Virus record (IMG/VR): IMGVR_UViG_3300009001_000075
Span: 1-26,827 of that record
DNA from: a virus
Strand: one strand, 5' to 3'
DNA length: 26,827 nt
Under the pieces are notes generated by a model. The model was not told where the DNA came from. It did no database searches and saw only the letters and a list, made by a program, of their open reading frames with translations. Shown one piece after another: positions 1 to 21,939 of the stretch. Position 1 is the stretch's first letter; each line of letters begins with the position of its first letter. The translations under genes were made by a program, and so were the position numbers.

Positions 1-3000
1 CATCTACTCGTGCATCAATTCCCACTGCGGGTTCAATCAACTCCACCGGTTTGGTGATGTGACGTGATGCACCAGTACAACCATAAGGTGACGTTTCTGG
101 AATATCTGCCAAAACATCTGGTGTCACTGCCGGATCGTCAATGGCATATCCGACCGTGATCATTGACGTTCTTTGCAAATCAATGATTGGTGAAACGTAA
201 TCATTACCAGATTTCAGATCTACCTTAATCACCAGAGATTTCTCTCCTGCACCTAGTTGTGCAGTTTCGACTGCTGTCGGGAAGATTCCACGAGGTGATG
301 TAAAGTCAATGTTTTGAGCAGGTGTAATTCTCTGATATCGAGAGTCTTTTACATAAGCAGTTTGACTTCCACTTGCTGATTGTGCAGTGGTAAACTTCGC
401 AGATGTATCAACCGATGTCGAACGAGGAATCGCATGTTCTAACTGTAGGTTTGCAACATGGAATACCAGATTTTCGTCTGCTCGGACACCATTACCTGAA
501 GAGTTGCCACCCCGACCTGTTGCAGTTGCACTCGCACCTGAAATGGTAAATCCATATCGATTAGCGGATGCAGCAGTAATAGTGTGTGTTGCATTTAACT
601 GTGCAGCAGTAATACCATTAACGTCTGTTGCACCTTCAAGAGTCACTGTATCACCGGTCTTCAATCCATGATTGTCTTGTTTGATAACAACAATACCCGT
701 AGATTCTGTCGTGTAGATATAGTCGTAATCAAGTTCTTTCTTAGGAAGTGCAGCATTCTGCAAAACAACACTACCATTTGTGTTATTAAACTTCGCACGA
801 ACCAGACGATACATGAGATCCTGATCCTTTGACTCTTGCCATGTCGTACCATTCTGTGGTAAGAACAGAGAGCCTGGGATTGGTTGTGTAGTTACTGTTC
901 GACCAGTAGAACCCAAGACCGGTTGTTGTGTCTTCGCACTGAAGATTTCGTATTGAGTCGACGCAGACTTGACAACAATTGCATAGTGCCAGTTTGGTTG
1001 CAAGAAGATTGGTTCCTCAAATTCGAATGTCGTGGGTCGTCCCTGAACAGTAGACAACACTGGATCAGTACCGATTGCATCTACCTGACTTGGATTCAGG
1101 AATACCTGAGAGTCTGGAACGATGATGTCTTCGGATGGTTTTCCATCAACAACTGGACGAACTTCAATCGACACAGGCAAATTACCAGTGTCTTTTGTTC
1201 GGAAATATAACTGAATCTTAGTCAGTGTCAGTCCAAATGGATTATCGACATAGAATGTCTGAGCAAGTGGGTTCTCTAAAGTGTTCTGAGGAGCAACCGT
1301 ACTTGATGCCTGTTGATTCTTATTGACCGTAATGTAATCAGAAAGAACCGACGACATTGAGTTTGTTGATGAGATAACACTTAGATCTGCACCAGTTAAG
1401 GGTGTAGTCGAACCACTCCACAATCCAGATTTCTGTGGATCAATTAGATTGATATTACCAGAAGCGATGTTATCCAATCGTTCCTTGATTTCTTTCGCAG
1501 TATATGTACGCGCTCTTTTGCTGAGATAAGAATAAGGAACCGTACTGGAGTGATGTCGTAATCCTCTCCAACGAAGGAAATGTAAAGCAAAACCTAAGTT
1601 CGAATAGTAGTTGAAACACTTACTACCTGCTTCTTCCCAATCTGGAGTGTCGATATCCAAAAGCATAAACTCACGAACACCTGCACGGAATCGAGGACGA
1701 ACTGTAAATCCGTTGACAGTCTTACCCTGTTGTAGATACTTCAGTCGTCGACGAATTTCTGGTAATCCATATCGAGAACTTGGAATAAAGAACGAACCGG
1801 TAATCTCACCGTTTGCATCTGATACAAGTTCAGATGGCGTATCGGGATGTTGTGTCTGATTACCATAACGGTTACCGATCTCATCGTCACGTTCTGACCA
1901 ACGAACAAACGCCTCTTCTTTCACCCAATCACTAACATCAATACCATCGAAGAAGGGTGTAAACTTAGTGTTAGGTTTGAGACCAGTTGCCTTGAAGTAG
2001 ATCTTTCGACTTCTCATCCAAGGGACAAGAGCATAATCAACGTAACGATTACCGAATCGTGCACGAAGTGTGTTAGATGCAACCACACGAGTTACGTGTT
2101 TTACTCCACCAGTAAAACGTTGTGCATTTGAATAACTGCTATAATATTTGTCACTCTTATCATTATAGTTTGCACCCGATCTGGCGTATGCGTCTCCACA
2201 GTACTGTGTGTCATTTTGTTGATCGTCGGAAGAACGTCCCTGCCAGTTCCACTGCCAGTTATTCCAAAGTTGTGCCTGTTTGTCAGACAACTTGTCACGT
2301 CCTTTGATTGCACGATTTGCGGCAGTATAACTTTCTTTCCATTCATCCGAAGATGGAGAAAGTTTGAGTGTACCAATGTTTTGTGTCGATCCGAACGGAT
2401 TCACTTGTACAGATGTAGAAGCAAGATCTTGATATGCCCATTCTTCTTCATCATAAGTCAAGTAGACCTGATCACCCTTTCGAATAACGCCAGTTGATGT
2501 ATCGGAATCAAACTTGAGTTTGATGTTTCCTTCAACCGCACAAGGACGAATGATACCTGACTCTGGATCAATAGAAGCACAATGATCTGGGTTCTCTGTG
2601 TCAGTTCTACTATGGTCAGTTGCATCATCGACCACAGTACCAACTTCAACACGTTCGTTGCCTGCACTATCATACGACGGAGACAATCGTTGTTGAAGTT
2701 CTAGAATCGAGAGTCGAGTATACTCTTCGAGTCGATCTACCTTCGCTTCCAGTTCTGCAATATCTTTCATGGTGTAGTGTGGATGATCAATCTGAGTAAA
2801 CGATAGATCGTTTTCGTTGATCGTATTTGGATTCATCTGAATCTTGTACAACTCCAACGCATTGTCTGGAGTTGGCTTGAACTGGGGTGTTTGTGACTGT
2901 TGACCCATCAACAACTGAACTTCACCGTCTTGAGTAACCAACAGTTTGTCATTACGTGGCAGATAGTATTCTATATCCGCAGTAATGTCGTCACCCACAC

Positions 3001-5158
3001 GAGGTAATTCGTTGAGATATGTACTACTGAATGTACCACCATCGTTGTCATCATTTTCTAGTTTGGTCGAACGGAAGTCAACGAAATTGAATAGATTGAC
3101 TTCATCACCATTTGCGGTAACGTGTGTTGGAATCTGTGCATATGACAGACCATTGTAAGAAGATGCAGCAAAGAAATCACCTGTAGCACCATGTGAAAGA
3201 CGTGAGTACTTCACATAGATCTGATTTGGTGCGCTATCATTTGTGTCAAGAATGAGTCTGCCTCGTGTATAGAAATTATCACGTTGACCGTCATCTAGTG
3301 TGAAAGCGTTTATCATGTTAATACCAGAGGCATCTGTATTACGTACAGAATCAACATCAAAAATATCAACATGATCTTGAGGGAATTTGTAATATTTGGT
3401 ACCATCACTCTCAACCAGATTAAGAGTGTTTGTGATATTCTCTACAAGAGTCTTAGATCTCAGAGTTGCTGTTTTCTGAACATAGTAAAGAACTTTAAGT
3501 GTCTGACCATTGTAGGCAGTGTCGACATCGATGTCTCCCCCAGTTCCAGTAAACGATACAAAGGAGATTCCGGGCAATGAAACAATCCAATCTTCACGAT
3601 CAACAAATGTTTCTCCTGCACCCAATTCTGCATCAATGTTTACGGTACCTGAACTAACTGAACCCGCATTGACAAATCGTTGTTCTCTCAGAACAATATC
3701 AGTTCCAATTGATGCAACACGAGGACGTGTAGTGGGGAACAACAATGAGTTGCCTTGAGTTTCATAGAGTTTTGCTTTGGTTTCACTTGAATTGATACGA
3801 AGTGAATAATAATCAGTCGATGTACCGATCGATCTAACTTGTGAAATATCCTGTCCGGCATCAACCTTTACGTCTGTTACAAATACTTTGTGAGTTGCAC
3901 CATCCAACAATCCAGCATTGCCTGTGATCTTTTCTACTGCACGAATACGAGCGGTACCGATTCGTGTACCGGATTCGGGATCGGTTCCGACTGTTCCTAG
4001 AGTTACTTCTCCAAGGTCTAGAATAGAAGTGCCCTGACCAGAATCAACAAGGAAATAGTTTCCATAATTAATAGGAACAACATCGTTTACCTGAGTATCT
4101 GTTGATTGAGGTTTTGGAACAGATAACTTGAGAGGTGATGGATTTTCAACTCGATAACCACCGACATAGGCAGTACCAGCAGATACTACCAAATCAAGTT
4201 TATCTGCGTCATCTGGATCATCTTGATAATTGATGATAAATGGATCAACAACATAATCACCCGACTCTTCACTTGTTCGAGTCGCCAAAAGATTGTTGAT
4301 CTTGTTGTATGCGTCGTCCTCGTCTACCTTTTCAACAATAGTAGAGTTTTCGATATTTGAAAGGAATAAGAACGTATCGTCTGAAGTAGTGTCCGCCTTG
4401 TCAACCAAAGTCAGTGTGATTCGATATCGATCTGCGCCTGGCGAAGCGGTATTAGTTACACCCCCAGTATTGTCGTACAATGAAGTATCGTCATTGACAG
4501 TTACAACTTCTTGAACAACCTTAAATCCGACTGCACCGGTGAATGATTGATCATAAGGGTTGAGGATCAATGACTGACGGGATGCGTTTACAAAACGACC
4601 AAGGACAAAGAAGTCTCCGGTTTCTACATCTATTTTTACGCCCCGTCCCGAAGCATTTACATTTTCGGTTGTCAGTTCATAACCACCACCCGATTGATCT
4701 AGAAGAGTGACATCATCACCAAATCTGGCGGGAGTGCTCGCAATGACCTGATCACCCGCATCGATGTATTGAACATAAAGAGTATCACGAGTAAAACCAA
4801 TCGTAGTATTTTTTGGTCGGACTTCAAGAACACGTGCTTCAATTAGAGTGTTCGGGTCACGGAATACTGTACCAACAGGTATATCCTCAAATCCCCCACC
4901 TGCATTTGTGGATGCAATCTTAACATATTCATAAGATGAATTGATTGACATACCGCCCGATGAAACAGCTGCACCCTCCTTAAAGATGTTACGACCAAGT
5001 CGTCCCAACTCTTTATAGATGAGTGTCTGAAGTTGTGTCAGTTCACGTGCTTGTAGTGCACGTCCACTGTTGAACAGGATTTGATGAAAATGCTTATCCT
5101 GATCAAAATCATCATCGTATGTACCCTGTAAGGTTGCGGATGTGAATGTAGTTGCCAT
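1..5158 (-). CDS. DUF4815-type large virion structural protein (C-terminus beyond window)
   Basis: Open for 1719 codons from the ATG at 5158-5156 with no stop before base 1, so the C-terminus is missing. The N-terminus reads MATTFTSATLQGTYDDDFDQ, then FNSGRALQARELTQLQTL and a GRLGRNIFKEG segment. This 'ALQARELTQLQ...fG..iFKEG' pattern is the hallmark I know from DUF4815 proteins of T4-like marine phages, encoded just after gp8. The body is rich in Thr, Asp, Gly and Val, as in beta-structured virion proteins. A heptad-like helix (AELEAKVDRLEEYTRLSILE) is encoded near 2690-2765. The gene starts 3 bases after the gp8 stop, with AAGGG as ribosome site inside the end of gp8. It is probably a baseplate-periphery or tail-fibre-attachment component, perhaps replacing T4 gp9/gp10; that role is inferred from position. 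Confidence 0.85.
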   Translation of the reverse strand, partial: MATTFTSATLQGTYDDDFDQDKHFHQILFNSGRALQARELTQLQTLIYKELGRLGRNIFKEGAAVSSGGMSINSSYEYVKIASTNAGGGFEDIPVGTVFRDPNTLIEARVLEVRPKNTTIGFTRDTLYVQYIDAGDQVIASTPARFGDDVTLLDQSGGGYELTTENVNASGRGVKIDVETGDFFVLGRFVNASRQSLILNPYDQSFTGAVGFKVVQEVVTVNDDTSLYDNTGGVTNTASPGADRYRITLTLVDKADTTSDDTFLFLSNIENSTIVEKVDEDDAYNKINNLLATRTSEESGDYVVDPFIINYQDDPDDADKLDLVVSAGTAYVGGYRVENPSPLKLSVPKPQSTDTQVNDVVPINYGNYFLVDSGQGTSILDLGEVTLGTVGTDPESGTRIGTARIRAVEKITGNAGLLDGATHKVFVTDVKVDAGQDISQVRSIGTSTDYYSLRINSSETKAKLYETQGNSLLFPTTRPRVASIGTDIVLREQRFVNAGSVSSGTVNIDAELGAGETFVDREDWIVSLPGISFVSFTGTGGDIDVDTAYNGQTLKVLYYVQKTATLRSKTLVENITNTLNLVESDGTKYYKFPQDHVDIFDVDSVRNTDASGINMINAFTLDDGQRDNFYTRGRLILDTNDSAPNQIYVKYSRLSHGATGDFFAASSYNGLSYAQIPTHVTANGDEVNLFNFVDFRSTKLENDDNDGGTFSSTYLNELPRVGDDITADIEYYLPRNDKLLVTQDGEVQLLMGQQSQTPQFKPTPDNALELYKIQMNPNTINENDLSFTQIDHPHYTMKDIAELEAKVDRLEEYTRLSILELQQRLSPSYDSAGNERVEVGTVVDDATDHSRTDTENPDHCASIDPESGIIRPCAVEGNIKLKFDSDTSTGVIRKGDQVYLTYDEEEWAYQDLASTSVQVNPFGSTQNIGTLKLSPSSDEWKESYTAANRAIKGRDKLSDKQAQLWNNWQWNWQGRSSDDQQNDTQYCGDAYARSGANYNDKSDKYYSSYSNAQRFTGGVKHVTRVVASNTLRARFGNRYVDYALVPWMRSRKIYFKATGLKPNTKFTPFFDGIDVSDWVKEEAFVRWSERDDEIGNRYGNQTQHPDTPSELVSDANGEITGSFFIPSSRYGLPEIRRRLKYLQQGKTVNGFTVRPRFRAGVREFMLLDIDTPDWEEAGSKCFNYYSNLGFALHFLRWRGLRHHSSTVPYSYLSKRARTYTAKEIKERLDNIASGNINLIDPQKSGLWSGSTTPLTGADLSVISSTNSMSSVLSDYITVNKNQQASSTVAPQNTLENPLAQTFYVDNPFGLTLTKIQLYFRTKDTGNLPVSIEVRPVVDGKPSEDIIVPDSQVFLNPSQVDAIGTDPVLSTVQGRPTTFEFEEPIFLQPNWHYAIVVKSASTQYEIFSAKTQQPVLGSTGRTVTTQPIPGSLFLPQNGTTWQESKDQDLMYRLVRAKFNNTNGSVVLQNAALPKKELDYDYIYTTESTGIVVIKQDNHGLKTGDTVTLEGATDVNGITAAQLNATHTITAASANRYGFTISGASATATGRGGNSSGNGVRADENLVFHVANLQLEHAIPRSTSVDTSAKFTTAQSASGSQTAYVKDSRYQRITPAQNIDFTSPRGIFPTAVETAQLGAGEKSLVIKVDLKSGNDYVSPIIDLQRTSMITVGYAIDDPAVTPDVLADIPETSPYGCTGASRHITKPVELIEPAVGIDARVD

Positions 5159-9057: not shown

Positions 9058-9672
9058 TCAATCCGGTAGGATCTCTAACAACTCATTTTTTGCCTGTAGC
9101 GTACCATTGTAAGTTGTTTTCAAACCATAATTGAATTGCACATCAAATGATTCAGGAACCTCTGGCATGGTCAATAGAATTGATGCAACAAGATCACCAC
9201 TAGGATCAAATGTGTCGTATGCAAGTTCCAACTCGTTGTAGTCGATGTAATCTTTCCAGTATACTGCGAGTTCGTATGTTTTACTTGGATCACTTTTGCC
9301 ATTACGATCGATTAATTGATAACCAATACCACGTCCAAATCGACGTTCTGCATTGAAACCACCAGCAGTCTCCTTGATGTCACGAGGCAAATCGTAGAAT
9401 GGTTCGTAGATGCCATCCGACACAATCAGTCGGTGTTGTTCAAATTCTTGACTAGTCAACACTGTATTCATTGCCTTTGCGTGTAACACCAGATTACGTG
9501 CAACCTGTAGTCGGTCTACAGGCCCACCAAACGATTCATTATAGAGTTTCTTAAACTGAGTTCGACTTCCAATACCACCCAGAAATTTGGCACACGTAAT
9601 TCCACTCGCTAACTTAGTCGCAGAGGTAATTTCACCAGAAGGTTTGTACTGAGGATCAATTAATATCTTCAT
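9058..9672 (-). CDS. Conserved-position unknown protein between tail spike and gp25
   Basis: 204 residues. I do not recognise this protein with confidence. It overlaps the spike gene by 4 bases (ATGA) and is co-transcribed with hub and spike genes, so a virion or tail-assembly role is likely. The N-terminus MKILIDPQYKPSGEITSATK is followed by a helical segment (RLQVARNLVLHAKAMNTVLTS) and a mixed segment with ETAGGFNAERRFGRGIGYQL and TYELAVYWKDYIDYNELELA. The order helix, 'IVSDG', 'GG', 'GxGxxL' and an acidic strand loosely recalls M15-type DD-carboxypeptidases, but the zinc ligands of the SxHxxGxAxD motif are absent. It has no signal peptide or membrane segment. The stop abuts the gp25 late promoter. 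Confidence 0.6.
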   Translation of the reverse strand: MKILIDPQYKPSGEITSATKLASGITCAKFLGGIGSRTQFKKLYNESFGGPVDRLQVARNLVLHAKAMNTVLTSQEFEQHRLIVSDGIYEPFYDLPRDIKETAGGFNAERRFGRGIGYQLIDRNGKSDPSKTYELAVYWKDYIDYNELELAYDTFDPSGDLVASILLTMPEVPESFDVQFNYGLKTTYNGTLQAKNELLEILPD

Positions 9673-11132
9673 GTTCTATTCACCTTGAATCGTTTACTGC
9701 GATTGTCAGCAGGGTTGTTGCCAATCAGTTCTGTACCAAATCTTAATGTTCCTTTTTTCGCGGCACTTCTACCGATATTAGTGGGTAGATTAGATTTGAA
9801 CGTCGAGTTCAGTTTACCTTCACTTACAAGATAACTCGTAAACTCTCCGTTGTTGAGATGTGCCGGATCTCTTAACTTAGACCGAATTTCATGAATAGAT
9901 GGATCATGACTGAATAGATCTTTGTATTCATCGGATCGACGAATCTTGTCTTCAAGTTCAGGATCAACACCCACTTGTCGTATACCATACTTTGATGTTG
10001 ATAACAAGAGTTCTGTAATATCTGCCGTAGGTAATGGTGCAGCAGGTTCAAGTGGATTGTAAGGCATAATACCTTCTTCGGGTATTGCGGGTGGAAGTGT
10101 GACGGGTTTAGGCGCTGAAGCGGCTTTGAGTGCTTTTGCAGCACCTTCTGCAAACTTTGCCTCTGTCGCTTTCATTGCATAGTCTGCATGAATTGCTTCG
10201 GTCGCACGCCCCACAAACACACCATAGAATGTGGATAGATTTGTATTCTCGCCCGGCTTACCACCATACGTGTTACCATAGTAATCGTGGTTGGGGCCAC
10301 CAAATGTACCCTTTTGTCCAATCGCAGAAAGAGATCTTGCCGCGAGATTGGTTGTTGATGCAGCTGACACCCACTCATTAACCGCAGTAGTAATCAAATC
10401 TTGACCGGTCAAAATTTCAGTGGATGCTTCGGTGAGCATATTGTTGTTGCCTTTGGTAACGACATAACGATCACCCAACACAGTGTCGGTACTCAGACCG
10501 ATAGTCTGACAACCTCGTGTTCCGCGTATCACATAGTTTTGATCCATGTTTACTGTCTTGGTATGTCTTCCTTTGATATCTTCGACTTTATCGCCCGCGA
10601 CATTAAGGTTATAGTTACCGCCAACAGAAACATTGAAATCACCGTCGACACGTAGATCAACATTACCTTTGTAAACAAGATCACCTTCTCCCTCCACGAT
10701 TACCTTTGAATCGCCACCAACAACTTCTACTCGTTGTCTGCGGGTTGATATGAGAACAGAACCATCCGCACGGAGTTCAATCCCTGCACCTGTTCGATGT
10801 TTGATAAGAACTCGTTCACCGCCAGGCGTATCATCCATCTCAAACGAGTGTCCCGATGGTGTTTCTTGTATCTGATTAAACGGAAAGATAGACGGTTCTT
10901 GATCTGGTAGTTCTAGATCAACTCCAACATCACCACCACCGATAGAAAGACGATTGACCTTTTCACCGGTCGCTGCCTTGTTTATCGAGGTGTCATAGAA
11001 GTATTCGCGTTTTGGAAACTGACCTGTTGGATCAGCAAACCCTTCTTTCGGTATACCTTCAGTGACTTCTTTTCCTAGTCCCGACTTGTCCGATTTTATT
11101 CGCGTTCTATATTCGTCTGAAAAATTTGTCAT
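9669..11132 (-). CDS. Tail spike protein, gp5 C-terminal beta-helix type
   Basis: 487 residues. Residues about 90-120 carry the phage/VgrG spike signature ETPSGHSFEMDDTPGGERVL followed by IKHRTGAGIELRADGSVLIS. Residues about 130-230 are short beta repeats with the period and V-x-G/N-x-D pattern of the T4 gp5 needle, for example GNVDLRVDGDFNVSVGGNYN followed by LNVAGDKVED. These should trimerise into a beta-helical needle. After the helix come a Gly/Asn-rich stretch, an Ala-rich helix (about 310-340), a Pro-rich linker and a charged tail of about 110 residues. It overlaps both neighbours by 4 bases. In T4 this module is the C-terminal third of gp5; here it is a separate gene, two genes downstream of the OB-fold gene. 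Confidence 0.8.
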   Translation of the reverse strand: MTNFSDEYRTRIKSDKSGLGKEVTEGIPKEGFADPTGQFPKREYFYDTSINKAATGEKVNRLSIGGGDVGVDLELPDQEPSIFPFNQIQETPSGHSFEMDDTPGGERVLIKHRTGAGIELRADGSVLISTRRQRVEVVGGDSKVIVEGEGDLVYKGNVDLRVDGDFNVSVGGNYNLNVAGDKVEDIKGRHTKTVNMDQNYVIRGTRGCQTIGLSTDTVLGDRYVVTKGNNNMLTEASTEILTGQDLITTAVNEWVSAASTTNLAARSLSAIGQKGTFGGPNHDYYGNTYGGKPGENTNLSTFYGVFVGRATEAIHADYAMKATEAKFAEGAAKALKAASAPKPVTLPPAIPEEGIMPYNPLEPAAPLPTADITELLLSTSKYGIRQVGVDPELEDKIRRSDEYKDLFSHDPSIHEIRSKLRDPAHLNNGEFTSYLVSEGKLNSTFKSNLPTNIGRSAAKKGTLRFGTELIGNNPADNRSKRFKVNRT

Positions 11133-13030
11133 GAGTTAATCTCATCCACGGTCAGTGGCCCTTGTGTCAGTGGGTCGCTAAACTTAGAATCCTTATCAAA
11201 GTTTGCCTTTACGTATGCACGAACATCAAAGCCGGGGTCAATAGTTAATGCGTCAATGTCTTGATGTCCTACGACTTGACCACCCGCAAAAACGTTATAA
11301 AAAGATCGACATATGTGATCGAATGTGTTAAACTGTGAACGTGTCAAAGATTGTACTGAGGTAAAGTCCAATAGATTCGGTGTTTCACTAGGCGCATTAA
11401 TACCACCAACAAACACCACCGCAATACTTCTTTCGTTGTGATTGTTTGTGACGGCATGTTCTCCCTGAATGTTTACAGGACGCCCACGTTGCAATGAACC
11501 ATCACGTCGAATCACATAATGATATCCAATACCTGCCAATCCGTTTGCTAGATGAATTGCATTTATCTCTTCACTACCAATGTTTTTGTTTGTGGGAGTT
11601 TCTGTCCAGTGAACAACTATTTCGGTAACATCTCGTACAATATTTTTAAATTCTGCCTGTAACTCTTCAACTGAAGATATGTAGGGGAACACTGGGTCAC
11701 CAAAACCATTCTTCCATTCCTTTGCAAACGAACCTATGACATAGGGTTCATCGAACACTGTGTCGGTAATTTCAGGTGATGTCGCACGAGTGATAGTGGT
11801 GTCCAGTGTCTTGAGGAAAGCACGAATCTCTGCAGCGCTCTTACCTGTCGATTGAAACAATAACTCAACCGCCTGTGAAAATTCTTGTGAATTGCCCTGC
11901 GACAAATTGATCACGCGATTGATATCCGCACTAGATAATCTTGGTGCAAATTCCTTGACTTGTTTACGAATCTCTGTTAAACTTTCAACACTTAACTGTT
12001 GTACAATACCTGTAGTTCCATCTCCGGCAACTCTTGACTGTACCAAAGAATTCCTTTCCTCTTGAGTCGCACGATATTGGTCACGAAGAGATTTTTGTTT
12101 CTGTGCACTTTGAATTACTTGTTTGCCTTCTTTTCCACCCGATAATTGTGAGAAGTCATTTGCACCTGCGACAAGATTCACTTTTGTTTCGAGATCCTTT
12201 GTTACCAATGATTGCAAGTCCGCAAGGGGTTTTGTCTTTGCATTCGCAATCATCGCATTGAATTCAGCAGTGTTGCCAGGCGATGTTGGAGTGATTGTTG
12301 CGATTGATCCTGAAACAACTTCACCAAAGTTTGGTTGTGTAGAGTCCGCTTCGATTTGTGAAGTGTCGATATACTTCACTCCTCTATTCACATCTGCAAG
12401 TGCACCGGTCGCTTCAAGTTTATCAGTTACACTTGTGACTGAGGCAGTGGCAAGAGAGTTAATCGACTCACTGGTAAACGCACCAATTTTACCTTCAATC
12501 CTTGCACCTGCCTTGAGAAGACCGTCCGGTGATGCGTCCAACACCTGTTTCTGTAGATCACCTCCACCCACATCGAGTCCAGTAATCTGTTTCAAAACAC
12601 CTGAAATTGTGTCTGCACCACCCGTAGGTTCAAGTGAAGAAGTATCTGGTACCTGAATGGTCAGACCATTGCCGAGATCGAGTTCTTTAAATGTAATTGC
12701 AATTTTAGATGTTGTTGGTGTAGTGATCGAACCAATAAGATTATCAACTACATTAGACGTAAGGTTTTCAATACTTTTGGATGCACTATTAAGCAATCCT
12801 TCGGTAGTAGTATTATTCAACAATCCCTGCGCTTTGTCAAACTTCTGTGTCAGAGATTGTATTCCACCATTGATCTCTCCAGCGATTGCACCCGCTTGTG
12901 TTTCGAGAGAGTTCTTGGTCGCATCAACTGCATTTCGTGCCTGCGACTCAATAACATCCTTACCCGCAAGATTTCGATTGTTCTTTAACGTCTGATTTAG
13001 TTTATCCTTTGCGCTAGAATAATCACTCAT
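11129..13030 (-). CDS. Tail-associated N-acetylmuramoyl-L-alanine amidase with long N-terminal virion region
   Basis: 633 residues. The C-terminal part, about residues 465-612, is an Amidase_2/PGRP-type zinc amidase that would cleave the lactoyl-Ala bond of peptidoglycan. Visible residues are H474 in IVVHWTE, Y503/Y505 in GIGYHYVIRRDG, H525 in GEHAV, NERSIAVVFVGG, H589 in VVGHQD and D598 in TIDPG. H474, H589 and D598 match the His/His/Asp zinc ligands of AmpD-like enzymes. Residues 1-460 are low-complexity and helical, rich in Ser, Thr, Gln and Asn, with no match I know; they probably anchor the enzyme to the hub. The gene lies between the OB-fold and spike genes with 4-base overlaps on both sides. 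A role in local wall digestion during infection is therefore more likely than host lysis. Confidence 0.85.
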   Translation of the reverse strand: MSDYSSAKDKLNQTLKNNRNLAGKDVIESQARNAVDATKNSLETQAGAIAGEINGGIQSLTQKFDKAQGLLNNTTTEGLLNSASKSIENLTSNVVDNLIGSITTPTTSKIAITFKELDLGNGLTIQVPDTSSLEPTGGADTISGVLKQITGLDVGGGDLQKQVLDASPDGLLKAGARIEGKIGAFTSESINSLATASVTSVTDKLEATGALADVNRGVKYIDTSQIEADSTQPNFGEVVSGSIATITPTSPGNTAEFNAMIANAKTKPLADLQSLVTKDLETKVNLVAGANDFSQLSGGKEGKQVIQSAQKQKSLRDQYRATQEERNSLVQSRVAGDGTTGIVQQLSVESLTEIRKQVKEFAPRLSSADINRVINLSQGNSQEFSQAVELLFQSTGKSAAEIRAFLKTLDTTITRATSPEITDTVFDEPYVIGSFAKEWKNGFGDPVFPYISSVEELQAEFKNIVRDVTEIVVHWTETPTNKNIGSEEINAIHLANGLAGIGYHYVIRRDGSLQRGRPVNIQGEHAVTNNHNERSIAVVFVGGINAPSETPNLLDFTSVQSLTRSQFNTFDHICRSFYNVFAGGQVVGHQDIDALTIDPGFDVRAYVKANFDKDSKFSDPLTQGPLTVDEINS

Positions 13031-13872
13031 ACGAACACCTCATCATATGCGAGTTGTGCAAGATTCTCTGTGTTATTTGTTGTGAAAAGATAATACTCAT
13101 TAACTACCGCACTTGCTGATTTAATATCGGTGGTATTTAGAAGTCTTCTGTTCGCTGCACCAAAACGATTTCTCAATTCAAATAATACGTACTGCAACTG
13201 AATAGAGTACAGACGCCAGTCAGAAGACGGTTGAAAGTTCTGTGAGAATGACAGCAAACCATTGAACCGACTACCGGTTGATGTATATCTGTCCCAACCT
13301 GCGATTCCGGAGATAAGATCGTCTCCATAAGTCTGAAACTTTGATCTGCCTTGTAATGCACCTGTAATGGCGGCAGAATGTATTAGATTGTATCCGTTGT
13401 CCAGAAAGAACTTCATAGACTGTTGACGGCGTAACTGAACCGATGTAGATTGCAGTTGGTCGTTCAACAAGATTTCGGTCACAGAATTTTGCAATCGTGT
13501 GGTGGTTTCAGTGAGACCAATGCGTCCCCGTTGAATAGATGATGGAAACTCCACACGAGGCAACGAACCCATCACAAGAGGTATCTGAGATGATGCACCG
13601 TCAAGGAATACTCCGAAGACAAACGATCCAGCAAGAAGTTGTGGTATGCGACCATACCCACTCACTCCTCCCTCAGTTGAGGGTATTAAAACCTGCGCCC
13701 ACGGAAGATCTTTTTCTGGTATGTCTTCCGTTTGTGGACTATGAACACCATTAATACGCACCTTGACACGTCCTTCAAGACCAGCAGGTGGTTGTGCATT
13801 AATGACGGTACCAAAGAACCATCGATAGTCGTCACCATAGAATTCTTTTTGTATTGGTCTTAAAACGTTCAT
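13027..13872 (-). CDS. 5: Baseplate hub gp5-type protein: OB fold plus lysozyme-like domain
   Basis: 281 residues. Residues 12-107 form the gp5/VgrG OB-fold: WFFGTVINAQPPAGLEGRVK, then LPWAQVLIPSTEGGVSGYGR and GSFVFGVFLDGASSQIPLVM, ending GSLP. This domain sits on the gp27 trimer. Residues about 149-281 resemble the phage tail lysozyme family (Phage_lysozyme2): KFFLDNGYNLIHSAAITGAL, then GDDLISGIAGWDR and SIQLQYVLFELR. The family consensus 'GNLxxES', which carries the catalytic Glu, reads GALQGRS here, with Arg at 176, so enzymatic activity is doubtful. T4 gp5 also has an OB-lysozyme order but continues into the beta-helix needle; here that needle is encoded separately. Overlaps gp27 and the amidase gene by 4 bases each. 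Confidence 0.85.
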   Translation of the reverse strand: MNVLRPIQKEFYGDDYRWFFGTVINAQPPAGLEGRVKVRINGVHSPQTEDIPEKDLPWAQVLIPSTEGGVSGYGRIPQLLAGSFVFGVFLDGASSQIPLVMGSLPRVEFPSSIQRGRIGLTETTTRLQNSVTEILLNDQLQSTSVQLRRQQSMKFFLDNGYNLIHSAAITGALQGRSKFQTYGDDLISGIAGWDRYTSTGSRFNGLLSFSQNFQPSSDWRLYSIQLQYVLFELRNRFGAANRRLLNTTDIKSASAVVNEYYLFTTNNTENLAQLAYDEVFV

Positions 13873-17799: not shown

Positions 17800-18376
17800 T
17801 TTATTTCAGAAAGTAGAATTCGAGGCATTCCGTGCGGGGATTACACCACGCACACGGGAGTCACGTGCATGGTTTAGAAAACGTGTACAGAACATAAAGG
17901 TCAATCGACGAGAGTTGATGGATGCGGATATGATCGAGAAGAGAGCGAGATCTGCCGTGGGTTCGATGTATATGTTTTTCTACGACGCAAAACATCGTGA
18001 CACCCTTCCCTATTGGGATGCGTTTCCGTTGGTCATCGCAGTTGGGCCTGCACCCAAGGGGTTTTATGGTTTGAATCTACACTATCTACCAATCCCTCTT
18101 CGTGCAAAGTTTCTTGATGCATTGATGGACATAACAAATAACAAGAGATATGACGAAACAACCTCATTTGGCGTATCATACGATTATCTGAAGTCTGCAA
18201 GTAAAATGAAATACTTCAAACCCTGTTTCAAACATTATCTTACGTCTCAGGTGGAAGGACAACTGTCATATATTCCACCACCTGAGTGGGAGATTGCAAC
18301 ATTCTTACCCGCTGCACAATGGCAGAAGGGTGGACAGTCACAAGCATATAGAGATGCAAGGAAAATGATTTCATGA
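17792..18376 (+). CDS. Conserved T4-like protein, possibly DNA end protector gp2
   Basis: 194 residues from a GTG at 17792 with GGAG upstream. The N-terminus is basic (RTRESRAWFRKRVQNIKVNR). The centre reads GSMYMFFYDAKHRDTLPYWD, AFPLVIAVGPAPKGFYGLNL and HYLPIPLRAKFLDALMDITN, followed by FKPCFKHYLTSQVEGQ and PPEWEIATFLPAAQWQKGG. I recall this 'MY.F.YD.K....LP.yD.FPLV......GF.GLNLHYLP' family from T4-like marine phages but cannot fix its name from sequence alone. In T4, gene 2, whose product protects packaged DNA ends from RecBCD, neighbours gene 4, and here the gene is two genes after gp4; that supports gp2. Another virion component is possible. Overlaps the next gene by 4 bases. Confidence 0.7.
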   Translation: MSNLFQKVEFEAFRAGITPRTRESRAWFRKRVQNIKVNRRELMDADMIEKRARSAVGSMYMFFYDAKHRDTLPYWDAFPLVIAVGPAPKGFYGLNLHYLPIPLRAKFLDALMDITNNKRYDETTSFGVSYDYLKSASKMKYFKPCFKHYLTSQVEGQLSYIPPPEWEIATFLPAAQWQKGGQSQAYRDARKMIS

Positions 18377-19119
18377 AAATCCCAACGATTGATGATTTCA
18401 AATCTAAGATAGGAGAAGGTGGTGGATATGCAAATCCAAGTCTCTTCTATGTGAGTCTACCTGTGTTAGGTGCAAGTACCGGCCAGAAGACCGCAGTTGA
18501 ATTTTTTGTAAAGAGTATTAGTCTACCCTCACGATCCATGATAACCGTTGATCGTGAACTAGGCACTGACATAATGAAAGTGCCATATGGATATCAAAAC
18601 GACGACATCACTATGACCTTTCTTGTGATGAACGATCACTTGACTCGACATTACATCGAAACATGGCAACAGGCGATGGTTCGAGATGTCAGTCCTAATC
18701 TTGAGAACAATTATCGTGTATCATATCCGGACGAATATCTGAGAGACATTCGAATATTTCAATTGGACAAGGGGTCTACAATACCTCTGGCAAGAAGAGA
18801 TGCAAGAGTCAATACCGACATTATAAATATCAACCTTGGCGCAACAGTCAGTATAAGCAACAGTGCCGCTGTTAGATATACTTGGCACATTATGGATGCA
18901 TTTCCGATTGCATTTCAACAAGAGACGTTGTCGAATGATGCGAGTGGAACAATCAGTGAGATAACTGCTACGTTTAGTTATCGAAAGTGGAAGGGTTCTC
19001 AGATACCTTCAAGTCGTTCTACAAACATCGATGTGAGTGTTGGACAAACCGAAGACATACAACAGCAGATTGGCGGAAAAATACTGAATTCAATATTGAA
19101 ACGCGGAAGAAGAATTTAA
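18373..19119 (+). CDS. 54: Tail-tube-fold protein, probable baseplate tube initiator gp54
   Basis: 248 residues. The sequence has the tube/gp54 arrangement: SLFYVSLPVL near the start, VEFFVKSISLPSRSMITVDR, then MKVPYGYQNDDITMTFLVMN (T4 gp54 has NIRITGRELDPLVISFRMDS). After that come HYIETWQQAMVRDVSPN, a beta-rich segment, and YTWHIMDAFPIAFQQETLSN with SEITATFSYRKWK (T4 has VMFTGCIPISVSAPELSYDG...TTFDVTFAYR). gp54 joins gp48 on the hub to nucleate the tube. A gp19-type tube paralogue is the main alternative; a second tube gene was not seen in this window. The last 35 residues are basic and Ile-rich. It overlaps the upstream gene by 4 bases and precedes gp26 by 15. Confidence 0.65.
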   Translation: MKIPTIDDFKSKIGEGGGYANPSLFYVSLPVLGASTGQKTAVEFFVKSISLPSRSMITVDRELGTDIMKVPYGYQNDDITMTFLVMNDHLTRHYIETWQQAMVRDVSPNLENNYRVSYPDEYLRDIRIFQLDKGSTIPLARRDARVNTDIININLGATVSISNSAAVRYTWHIMDAFPIAFQQETLSNDASGTISEITATFSYRKWKGSQIPSSRSTNIDVSVGQTEDIQQQIGGKILNSILKRGRRI

Positions 19120-19134
19120 ACATGGAGATAGATC

Positions 19135-19824
19135 ATGGCATTACCTAAACTAAACGATACACCAAAGTACACATTGACTGTACCTTCTACTGGACAGGAA
19201 TTAAAATATCGTCCCTATCTGGTCAAAGAAGAAAAGGTGTTATTGATGGCATCTGCGTCAGAAGATACGAGACAAATCATGGACGCCGTTCATGATACGA
19301 TTGTTGCCTGTGTCGAGGGTGTTGATGTAAGTAAACTGACTACATTTGACTTAGAGTATATTTTTATTCAGTTGAGATGCAAATCGACGGGCGAGAATAG
19401 TCAGATAAACGTTCGATGTCCATCATGCGATGAAAGAAATCTTGTGAATGTACCTTTGCATAAGATCGAATGCACAAAGTCAAATCAAGATCCTATGATT
19501 CGTATATCAGATAATATTGTTGTGGAAATGAAATACCCTAGTTACCATGACGTTCCTGCTGACATGCAATCTAATGAGATGGGTTTTGGTTTCCTTGCAG
19601 CATCAATCAAGTCGGTAATCAGTGGTGACGAAAAGATTAACGTAGAAGACGAACCATACGAAAGTGTGATCGCATTCCTTGAGTCAATGACTCAGGAACA
19701 GTTTTTATTAGTAACCTCGTTTTTCGAGGATGCACCAACGGTCAAGTATGATTTGGACATGACCTGCACAGAATGTGAAGCAATGAACGTCATTGAAATT
19801 AAGGGGATGAATAGTTTTTTTTAA
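19135..19824 (+). CDS. 26: Baseplate hub/assembly protein gp26 (T4_baseplate family)
   Basis: 229 residues (T4 gp26 208). The N-terminus MALPKLNDTPKYTLTVPSTG, then KYRPYLVKEEKVLLMASASE, is highly characteristic of the gp26 family in T4-like phages, as are FDLEYIFIQLRCKSTGE and the MKYPSYHDVPAD segment. Two CxxC pairs, C95/C98 (RCPSCDE) and C211/C214 (TCTECEA), could bind one zinc ion and bring the two ends of the domain together. GGAGAT lies 6 bases before the ATG. The reading frame ends in Phe-Phe-stop inside a run of eight T; a -1 slip there would add the gp51-like frame. In T4, gp26 and gp51 act in hub assembly. Confidence 0.85.
   Translation: MALPKLNDTPKYTLTVPSTGQELKYRPYLVKEEKVLLMASASEDTRQIMDAVHDTIVACVEGVDVSKLTTFDLEYIFIQLRCKSTGENSQINVRCPSCDERNLVNVPLHKIECTKSNQDPMIRISDNIVVEMKYPSYHDVPADMQSNEMGFGFLAASIKSVISGDEKINVEDEPYESVIAFLESMTQEQFLLVTSFFEDAPTVKYDLDMTCTECEAMNVIEIKGMNSFF
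19815..19821 (+). other. Candidate -1 ribosomal frameshift heptamer T TTT TTT
   Basis: In the gp26 frame the end reads AGT TTT TTT TAA, so T TTT TTT satisfies X XXY YYZ exactly and sits directly before the stop codon. A one-base backward slip opens a frame with 67 more codons, closed at 20022-20024. This -1 frame is closed upstream by TAG at 19812, so the two frames overlap only around the T run. P2 uses the similar T TTT TTG for its E/E' tail chaperones. Polymerase slippage on the T run could give the same product. No strong downstream stimulatory stem is obvious. Confidence 0.55.
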
Positions 19825-20024
19825 TATGCCTCGCGCATGAAGAACTGTCGAACCATTATAAGGTCAATTTCTTGTTGCAGAGGCACCATAATTACACACT
19901 GACAGAGTTGGATAATATGATGCCTTGGGAAAGGGAAGTTCATACGATTCTCTTGATTCAGGCATTGGAAGAAGAAAAACAAGCACGAGAGAAGGCAAAA
20001 AATGGCAACAATTACTCTGGATGA
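19815..20024 (+). CDS. 51: gp51-like hub assembly frame, probably expressed by -1 frameshift from gp26
   Basis: An open frame of 69 codons lies in the -1 frame relative to gp26. After the slip site it encodes LICLAHEELSNHYKVNFLLQ, RHHNYTLTELDNMMPWEREV and HTILLIQALEEEKQAREKAK, ending NGNNYSG. The 'Y.l.eLdnM.PWEReiy..lL...leeEk' pattern matches my memory of the short gp51-type proteins beside gp26 in marine T4-like phages. No ATG occurs in the first 34 codons. Independent options are a TTG at 19872, with AAGG about 9 bases upstream, or the ATG pair at 19917, which lacks a good ribosome site. The frame overlaps the tape-measure-like gene by 23 bases. That it is real is fairly likely; the expression mode is inferred. 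Confidence 0.6.
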   Translation, partial: FFLICLAHEELSNHYKVNFLLQRHHNYTLTELDNMMPWEREVHTILLIQALEEEKQAREKAKNGNNYSG

Positions 20025-21939
20025 TGTAGTCGTAGAACAGATGAAAACCAACGAGACGTTGGGAGCTCTTATCGACAAGACAAAGGTCATGATCGAACTG
20101 CAAGAAGCAGGAGTAACTGGTCTTGACATTCTGATCGATAAATTCGACGACATGTTGAATTTTATGAAGGCGGAAGCGTTCGAGGCAGGTCGTCGATATC
20201 GAGAGGGACTCAGAGAAAGAAGTGCGCCCCCACCCTTTGTTGGCCCTCCCGCGCCAGGATCTCCTCCCCCAACAGGTGATCCACAAACCTACGATTTTGG
20301 TAATGCGGGAATCACCACTCTTGCCATTGGTGCGGGTGTTTTTGCCAAAAACGTTCTCGAAGGGTTTGTTGGTGCAGTAAGAGACAGTATTCGAAACTTC
20401 AATGCGAGTTTTACTGCACGTTATGAACGTATGGTTCAAAGATTCAATGCATCTAATAAAAAGTTTATGAAATCATTTGGTAGAGGTCTTGAGAATTTAA
20501 GAAATGGGTTCACTCGTGTAACCACAGGCATTTCTACCGGTATATCTAACTTTGGTGCCACTATTTCAAATTGGTATAACAACTTTGCAAATAAATTCCT
20601 ACGAGGTGGAAACATGACCACCTTGTCTCAAAACCTGAGTAAAATGTTTGAACCTGTGCGACGATTTGGAGAGAGAATCGCAAACACACCTTTCTTTAAA
20701 GCATTAGGTGCATTTGGTCGTATCCTTGGTAAGATACTTTATCCGGTCGGTTTGATTTTTTCTGTATTCACTGGAGCAAAAGACGAAATCGAAAAAGAGG
20801 GTGAAGAGTTTGGAATATTAGGTAAGACCGCACTTGGATTTATTGGTGCAGCAAAGGGTCTGTTAGGTTTTGTTTTATGGCCATTTGAATTCATCAAGGA
20901 CGTGTTGTCCTTCATCTCAGAGAAACTTGGATTCGAAGGATTCGCAAAGTTCTTAGATTCCTTTGATATCATGAAAGATGGTGTGGATCTTGTATTTGGA
21001 TCACTTAACGATCTAGGCACATGGATTGGTGGTAAGATATTTGGTATCGTTGACTTTTTCTCTAATCTTAAATTACCAGAGTTGCCATCATTCTCAGGAA
21101 TCAAAGAGAAATTCGCAAACCTGTTCTCTGAAATAGGTATTCCCCGTATAGAATTTGAAATTCCTGTTATTGGAAAAAAGGTGGGGTTTGGGCCTTTCTA
21201 TCCATTCAAAGATGATGGTGGAGATGCGCCTGCTGTTCCATCGACATCACCTGCTGCGCCACAAGAGTCATCACAAGATAGTTTTAAAATGGGTTCTGTA
21301 GATAGACCTTCGAGGTTAAGAGGAAGGGAGATTGGGGGTTCCGGTGAGACATCACTTTCTGATAAAGAAGTTGCTGAATTGCAAACCAAGAAAAAACTCA
21401 CTGCACGTGCACTTAAAGATTTTGAGAGTGATTCCTCCAATGCATTTGAAACGTATGTAGATGATGATGATCCCTTTGGTGAAGTAAAAAGACGGTATAC
21501 TAATCCTGAAGTTCAAACACAGTACGAATCATTGCAACGAGATAGTCGTCTTGCTGAGTCTGACTATGGTAAAGCAAAGTCTGACAAGACAAGAGCATTA
21601 GGATCAGGAAATATTGGTAAGATAAAATTCTTACAGAGCAAAGGTGTGTTGCCACCAAATTTTGAAAGAACGTTTGGTGTTGGTGAAATCGATAGAATGG
21701 TAGATGACTATTATTCTGCAAAAGCAGATGTTATTAAACCACCAGTGGATGAAACGACTGAAGTTGTTCAGAAAGAAACAATGGAAAATGTAGCGAGTTC
21801 ACAGGCTGCCCCAAATGTAGTTATTCAGGACAACTCTGTGAACTCTAGTAATCAGAATAGTAACACGGTTGTACCACCACCGCCCATGTCATCACCAACT
21901 AATGACAATAGAACACGGGCGAGTGCGTACAGTGGTTAA
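20002..21939 (+). CDS. 29: Probable tail tape-measure protein (gp29-like)
   Basis: 645 residues (T4 gp29 590). Residues 1-66 are helical and charged, 75-93 form a Pro-rich linker, and 99-125 are hydrophobic. Residues 126-200 are helical with regularly spaced Phe and Asn. Two hydrophobic segments at about 232-257 and 273-306 could insert into the host membrane; T4 gp29 also has hydrophobic stretches. The last 240 residues are polar, ending in an Asn/Pro-rich tail (NSSNQNSNTVVPPPP) like those of other T4-like tape measures. At about 1.5 angstrom per residue, its length predicts a tail near 97 nm, close to T4. AGAAGG precedes the ATG, which lies inside the gp51-like frame, as expected after a chaperone cassette. 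Identity is inferred from composition, length and context, not strong motifs. The stop shares bases with the gp32 stop. Confidence 0.65.
   Translation: MATITLDDVVVEQMKTNETLGALIDKTKVMIELQEAGVTGLDILIDKFDDMLNFMKAEAFEAGRRYREGLRERSAPPPFVGPPAPGSPPPTGDPQTYDFGNAGITTLAIGAGVFAKNVLEGFVGAVRDSIRNFNASFTARYERMVQRFNASNKKFMKSFGRGLENLRNGFTRVTTGISTGISNFGATISNWYNNFANKFLRGGNMTTLSQNLSKMFEPVRRFGERIANTPFFKALGAFGRILGKILYPVGLIFSVFTGAKDEIEKEGEEFGILGKTALGFIGAAKGLLGFVLWPFEFIKDVLSFISEKLGFEGFAKFLDSFDIMKDGVDLVFGSLNDLGTWIGGKIFGIVDFFSNLKLPELPSFSGIKEKFANLFSEIGIPRIEFEIPVIGKKVGFGPFYPFKDDGGDAPAVPSTSPAAPQESSQDSFKMGSVDRPSRLRGREIGGSGETSLSDKEVAELQTKKKLTARALKDFESDSSNAFETYVDDDDPFGEVKRRYTNPEVQTQYESLQRDSRLAESDYGKAKSDKTRALGSGNIGKIKFLQSKGVLPPNFERTFGVGEIDRMVDDYYSAKADVIKPPVDETTEVVQKETMENVASSQAAPNVVIQDNSVNSSNQNSNTVVPPPPMSSPTNDNRTRASAYSG

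Follow-up and report, generated by a model that had tools for sequence, protein, structure and literature searches.

A conserved −1 frameshift signal very likely joins gp26 to a gp51-like frame, giving two forms of a putative tail assembly chaperone, in an uncultured marine T4-like virus

Does the gp26 gene of this virus simply end at its stop codon, or is it also read on, by a slip of one base on a run of T, into the gp51-like frame that lies behind it? The source record is 26.8 kb of viral DNA in which T4-like structural genes are present. The window is the whole stretch that was analysed, 26,827 nucleotides in length. The sequence-only reading had proposed the tail assembly chaperone layout for this locus, and the comparative evidence strongly supports the joining of gp26 to the gp51-like frame at −1. 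The gene order is tail tube, chaperone, frameshifted chaperone and (probable) tape measure, made up of the following features.

18373–19119, + strand: upstream tail tube gene, gp19-like (PHROG 45 tail tube, E=5e-32).
19135–19824, + strand: gp26-like gene, TAC-N, short tail assembly chaperone of 229 aa (PF12322, E=1e-56; PHROG 150, E=5e-60; AlphaFold pLDDT 89).
19815–19821, + strand: slippery heptamer T TTT TTT, in phase, at the 3' end of gp26.
19822–19824, + strand: gp26 stop codon TAA, which a −1 shift would bypass.
19821–20024, + strand: −1 frame, TAC-C, gp51-like C-terminal domain, 67 codons (PHROG 634, E=1e-21).
20002–21939, + strand: probable tape-measure protein, 645 aa (weak matches to PHROG tape-measure families, E=1e-4 and 1e-3; position; length).

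The 3' end of the gp26 gene (19810–19824, + strand) reads AAT AGT TTT TTT TAA. Eight T form the run (19815–19822), the last of which is the first base of the gp26 stop. Read at −1 from 19815, the codons are TTT TTT TTA ATA TGC; translation of the −1 frame begins LICLAHEELSNHYKVNF and is terminated by TGA at 20022–20024. The codon of this frame immediately 5' of the heptamer is TAG (19812–19814), and no start can therefore lie further upstream. Neither ATG, GTG nor TTG was found by a start-codon scan of the first 12 codons. The earliest candidate starts, TTG 19872 (codon 18) and ATG 19917 (codon 33), both fall within the conserved TAC-C domain. The frame overlaps the next gene by 23 nt. All of this agrees with the sequence-only reading, according to which gp26 ends AGT TTT TTT TAA and is followed by a 67-codon −1 continuation that has no early ATG and ends inside the start of the next gene. 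A miscall of the T8 run had been named there as a possible objection. The same T8 is present in a contig from a different metagenome (L002), whose gp26 is 100% identical to that of the window, and in relatives at 69% and 59% identity (L003–L005), and is not a one-off error.

The −1 frame product is assigned by PHROG 634 to the 'baseplate hub assembly catalyst' (gp51), and its domain profile aligns to T4 gp51 207–243 (E=9e-5). The structure model of TAC-C consists of helices (pLDDT 84). The gp26 model matches gp26-type hub chaperones in BFVD. Sequence and fold searches of the PDB gave no significant match; the highest probability among the best 50 matches of the gp26 model to PDB folds belongs to HK97 chaperone 2ob9 and is not significant (E=1.7, prob 0.35). 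No tail assembly chaperone family was found by Pfam scans of the TAC-C alignment, and comparing the TAC-C model with the folds of viral structures was uninformative. The likely products of the locus are a short chaperone of 229 aa (TAC-N) and a frameshifted form of 296 aa (TAC-NC).

Two further observations concern the structural genes elsewhere in the window. A gp5-like hub/tail lysozyme (9669–13872, − strand) is seemingly split over three consecutive genes, namely an N-terminal part (13027–13872), a protein of 633 aa that carries an amidase at its C-terminus (11129–13030) and a hub-lysozyme-like part (9669–11132), all on the − strand. The left edge cuts off a protein of 1719 aa or more (2–5158, − strand), which adjoins baseplate wedge genes and matches solely PHROGs of unknown function (358, 877 and others).

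The junction recurs in relatives. A first survey covered 80 IMG/VR relatives of the window gp26, nearly all of which have the same junction. With S-PM2 and Stenotrophomonas gp26 relatives added, and one sequence kept per 90% identity cluster, the survey comprises 81 relatives (<90% identity); an in-phase T TTT TTN followed by a gp51-like frame at −1 is present in 78. Position 7 of the heptamer is C in 46 of these, T in 31 and G in one. Among the three exceptions, L066 carries T TTT TTC about 10 codons before the gp26 stop, and Rhizobium RHph_I1_18 carries T TTT TTA further upstream. Dickeya phiDP23.1, a distant relative, has no canonical heptamer; an overlapping TAATG start is found instead. 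In a wider set, which adds database phages of Ochrobactrum, Aeromonas, Vibrio, Acidovorax, Citrobacter and Rhizobium, every member carries T TTT TTN in 39 of the 40 clusters formed at 60% identity and in 25 of the 26 formed at 50%. A scan of viral contigs with Vibrio D486 gp26 as the query gave no match. No relative surveyed has, in the −1 frame, an ATG that coincides with or precedes the heptamer. In some, an ATG is found shortly 3' of the heptamer; it is not conserved, whereas the heptamer is. Alignment of related junctions had been proposed as a check, and its outcome is that the slippery site is kept and an ATG start is not. What is found is an X XXY YYZ heptamer, in phase and conserved, with a coding frame at −1. 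In one relative (L074, 3196–3290) the −1 frame is broken after 30 residues and gp51 similarity resumes in another frame, probably through an indel error in that contig.

Constraint is seen on the heptamer and on the frame behind it. T stands at the wobble position of the first Phe codon and at that of the preceding codon in 78 of 78 sequences, counts that are descriptive and not probabilities because these sequences were picked for the heptamer and share ancestry. The remaining Phe codons of gp26 are TTT in 69% of cases, and T is the last base of 75% of two-fold codons. Of all alignment columns holding 40 or more such codons, the two heptamer wobble sites alone reach 100%. Other Phe-Phe pairs in gp26 form a T TTT TTY slippery heptamer in 3 of 41 cases. 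Judged by these comparisons, recurrence of the heptamer and invariance of its wobble bases appear far more frequent than chance would give. The −1 frame evolves as protein and is under purifying selection, with substitution rates of 0.30/0.18/0.53 at codon positions 1/2/3. This includes codons 4–17, which lie 5' of the first possible starts: 0.25/0.17/0.49 among relatives sharing the stop arrangement of the window.

Elements resembling frameshift stimulators lie on both sides of the heptamer.

19801–19806, + strand: Shine-Dalgarno-like AAGGGG, 8 nt 5' of the heptamer (sequence; anti-SD energy across 78 relatives).
19827–19885, + strand: possible stem-loop, basal stem TGCCTC (19827–19832) with GAGGCA (19880–19885), −18.7 kcal/mol, z=−2.5.

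Anti-SD pairing was computed with the 3' end of E. coli 16S rRNA. Mean energy across the 78 relatives has its minimum, −6.2 kcal/mol, at offset −16, on a background of about 0; values of −4 or lower occur in 85% of relatives vs 3–18% at control positions. The site is thus present and conserved in position, and is probably a frameshift stimulator. Part of the signal may reflect a conserved glycine encoded there. The stem-loop is suggestive only in this lineage, since the stem is broken in two close relatives (L006 and L010). The consensus fold of the closest relatives of the window gives no support for a conserved hairpin. Folding downstream of the heptamer across relatives has a mean z of −2.05, against −0.37 in the control stretches (Wilcoxon p=2e-9). 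Structure is clear in the cyanophage groups; long hairpins follow immediately 3' of the gp26 stop in cyanophages of the S-PM2 type. Few base pairs are preserved by changes on both sides of a stem: one in one subgroup, two in another and none in a further subgroup. In the cyanophage relatives L102, L108, L110 and L112, hairpins of ~14–17 bp begin at the gp26 stop or immediately behind it, within the gp51-like frame.

In all probability, one chaperone gene is here read two ways through a −1 slip on T TTT TTT, to give TAC-N and TAC-NC. The majority of ribosomes would end at the gp26 TAA and release TAC-N. A fraction would be held by base pairing between 16S rRNA and the upstream Shine-Dalgarno-like site, to which many relatives would add a hairpin just 3' of the heptamer. 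Two Phe-tRNAs would then shift back by one base on the heptamer, and continued reading at −1 would add the gp51-like helical domain. By analogy with lambda G/GT, TAC-N and TAC-NC would bind and guide the tape-measure protein encoded by the next gene. The programmed −1 frameshift signal appears real and well conserved and is very likely functional. Slippage, its efficiency and the chaperone function are presumed; the conserved junction, −1 coding, the Shine-Dalgarno-like site and the homology of each part to T4 gp26/gp51 are read directly from the sequences.

Separate translation of the gp51-like protein, begun at an internal start or by reinitiation once ribosomes have terminated at the gp26 stop, would make the T run incidental. 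Database annotations do assign gp51 a start of its own, an ATG 15 nt after the heptamer start is frequent in cyanophages, and stop-start overlaps (TAATG/TGATG) occur in some distant groups. The ATG varies among relatives, however, and the heptamer does not; a start at TTG 19872 or ATG 19917 would lose conserved residues, codons 4–17 are already under protein-level selection, and the Shine-Dalgarno-like site stands at the distance from the heptamer expected of a frameshift stimulator. Separate translation is accordingly regarded as improbable.

Long T runs can give transcriptional slippage, and the T8 run is long. RNA polymerase slipping on it would yield mixed mRNAs with no ribosomal shift, but in 46 of 78 relatives the run is interrupted (T TTT TTC) with the junction unchanged, and the Shine-Dalgarno-like site and hairpins implicate the ribosome, which leaves slippage of the polymerase very improbable. 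It is scarcely credible that gp26 and gp51 are truly a single continuous frame broken by a sequencing or assembly error. Homopolymer runs are prone to such errors, and L074 holds one likely indel within its −1 frame; the same frame relation is nevertheless present in independent contigs and in isolates such as S-PM2, P-SSM2 and Aeh1.

Tail assembly chaperones of T4-like phages have been identified before (Vladimirov, Gautam and Davidson, Virology 2022, 566:9-15, doi 10.1016/j.virol.2021.11.003), and the title of that paper refers to a mechanism other than frameshifting. As the paper is restated in PMC10885494, some T4-like phages have a short gene together with a longer, fused one; in PMC12846349 it is cited for the T-rich −1 signals that T4-like phages carry in their TAC-N genes. 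The statement of the sequence-only reading that the layout is not established for T4-type gp26/gp51 was consequently wrong. The chaperone arrangement has been known since 2022, and the uncultured marine lineage studied here adds another case.

Consequences for annotation follow. Cyanophage gp51 was described as lacking the first ~200 residues, and Aeh1 as the sole phage missing gp51 (Sullivan et al. 2010, PMC3037559). The cyanophage proteins seem short by ~200 residues because the missing part corresponds to gp26. In Aeh1 (L180, AY266303.2) an unannotated gp51-like frame is present at −1 (1201–1359) after GAT TTT TTC GAC TGA, so that the published absence of gp51 appears to be a gap in the annotation. 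Aeromonas AS-szw (L174) and Vibrio VmeM-32 (L173) likewise have an unannotated −1 gp51-like frame after T TTT TTC/T at the gp26 end. Annotated gp51 starts in S-PM2 (L082, 2691–2864) and C48C1 (L084, 3783–3887) are guesses that omit the front of the −1 frame; in C48C1 the annotated gp51 is reduced to about 34 aa. In the records of many cyanophages and Aeromonas phages, the gp51-like frame carries a guessed start, is cut short or was overlooked; its annotation ought to link it to gp26 through a −1 shift. A well conserved signal is available for direct testing.

In T4, gp26 and gp51 are both PF12322 proteins and align to each other (E=2e-6). PHROG 150 matches the whole length of T4 gp51 and PHROG 634 its end; because gp51 combines a gp26-like domain with a TAC-C domain, it is the genetic equivalent of the frameshift fusion. 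The window shares with these T4-like chaperones PF12322, PHROG 150 and 634, and the pairing of a short form with a form that bears a C-terminal domain. It differs in that the short and long forms of T4 are separate genes, 26 and 51, on opposite strands, whereas the window has a single −1 junction. T4 gene 26 ends GAG TTC TTT GAG TTA CTA TAA; it lacks a heptamer, and no TAC-C frame follows. The abstract of the 2022 study reportedly describes frameshifting as a conserved feature of several T4-like groups and names genes 26 and 51 as the ones used by T4. The idea of the sequence-only reading that T4-like tails use the same chaperone principle thus holds, T4 having the short form and the fused form as two genes, but T4 itself is without a frameshift here. 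Frameshifting of gp26/gp51 is somewhat favoured as ancestral to the whole T4-like assemblage, its signal having persisted across very great divergence; in T4, duplication would then have set the short form and the fused form as separate genes and left the frameshift redundant.

A comparable locus of Vandenendeviridae and Andersonviridae (phage Adele, PMC12846349) has a conserved T-rich −1 motif that ends TAC-N and precedes the tape-measure gene; it differs in its motif, GTTTTT, and in belonging to other phage families. No sequence similarity to lambda G or T was detected: the window proteins reach an hhalign probability of about 0.1% against them, a weak test with a single sequence on the lambda side. 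The window gp26 has CxxC zinc-ribbon-like pairs, unlike lambda G/GT. The lambda order, tail tube (V), G, T and tape measure (H), is like that of the window with its probable tape-measure gene, and the locus supports the published view that T4-like tails and lambda share the principle of a chaperone in two forms.
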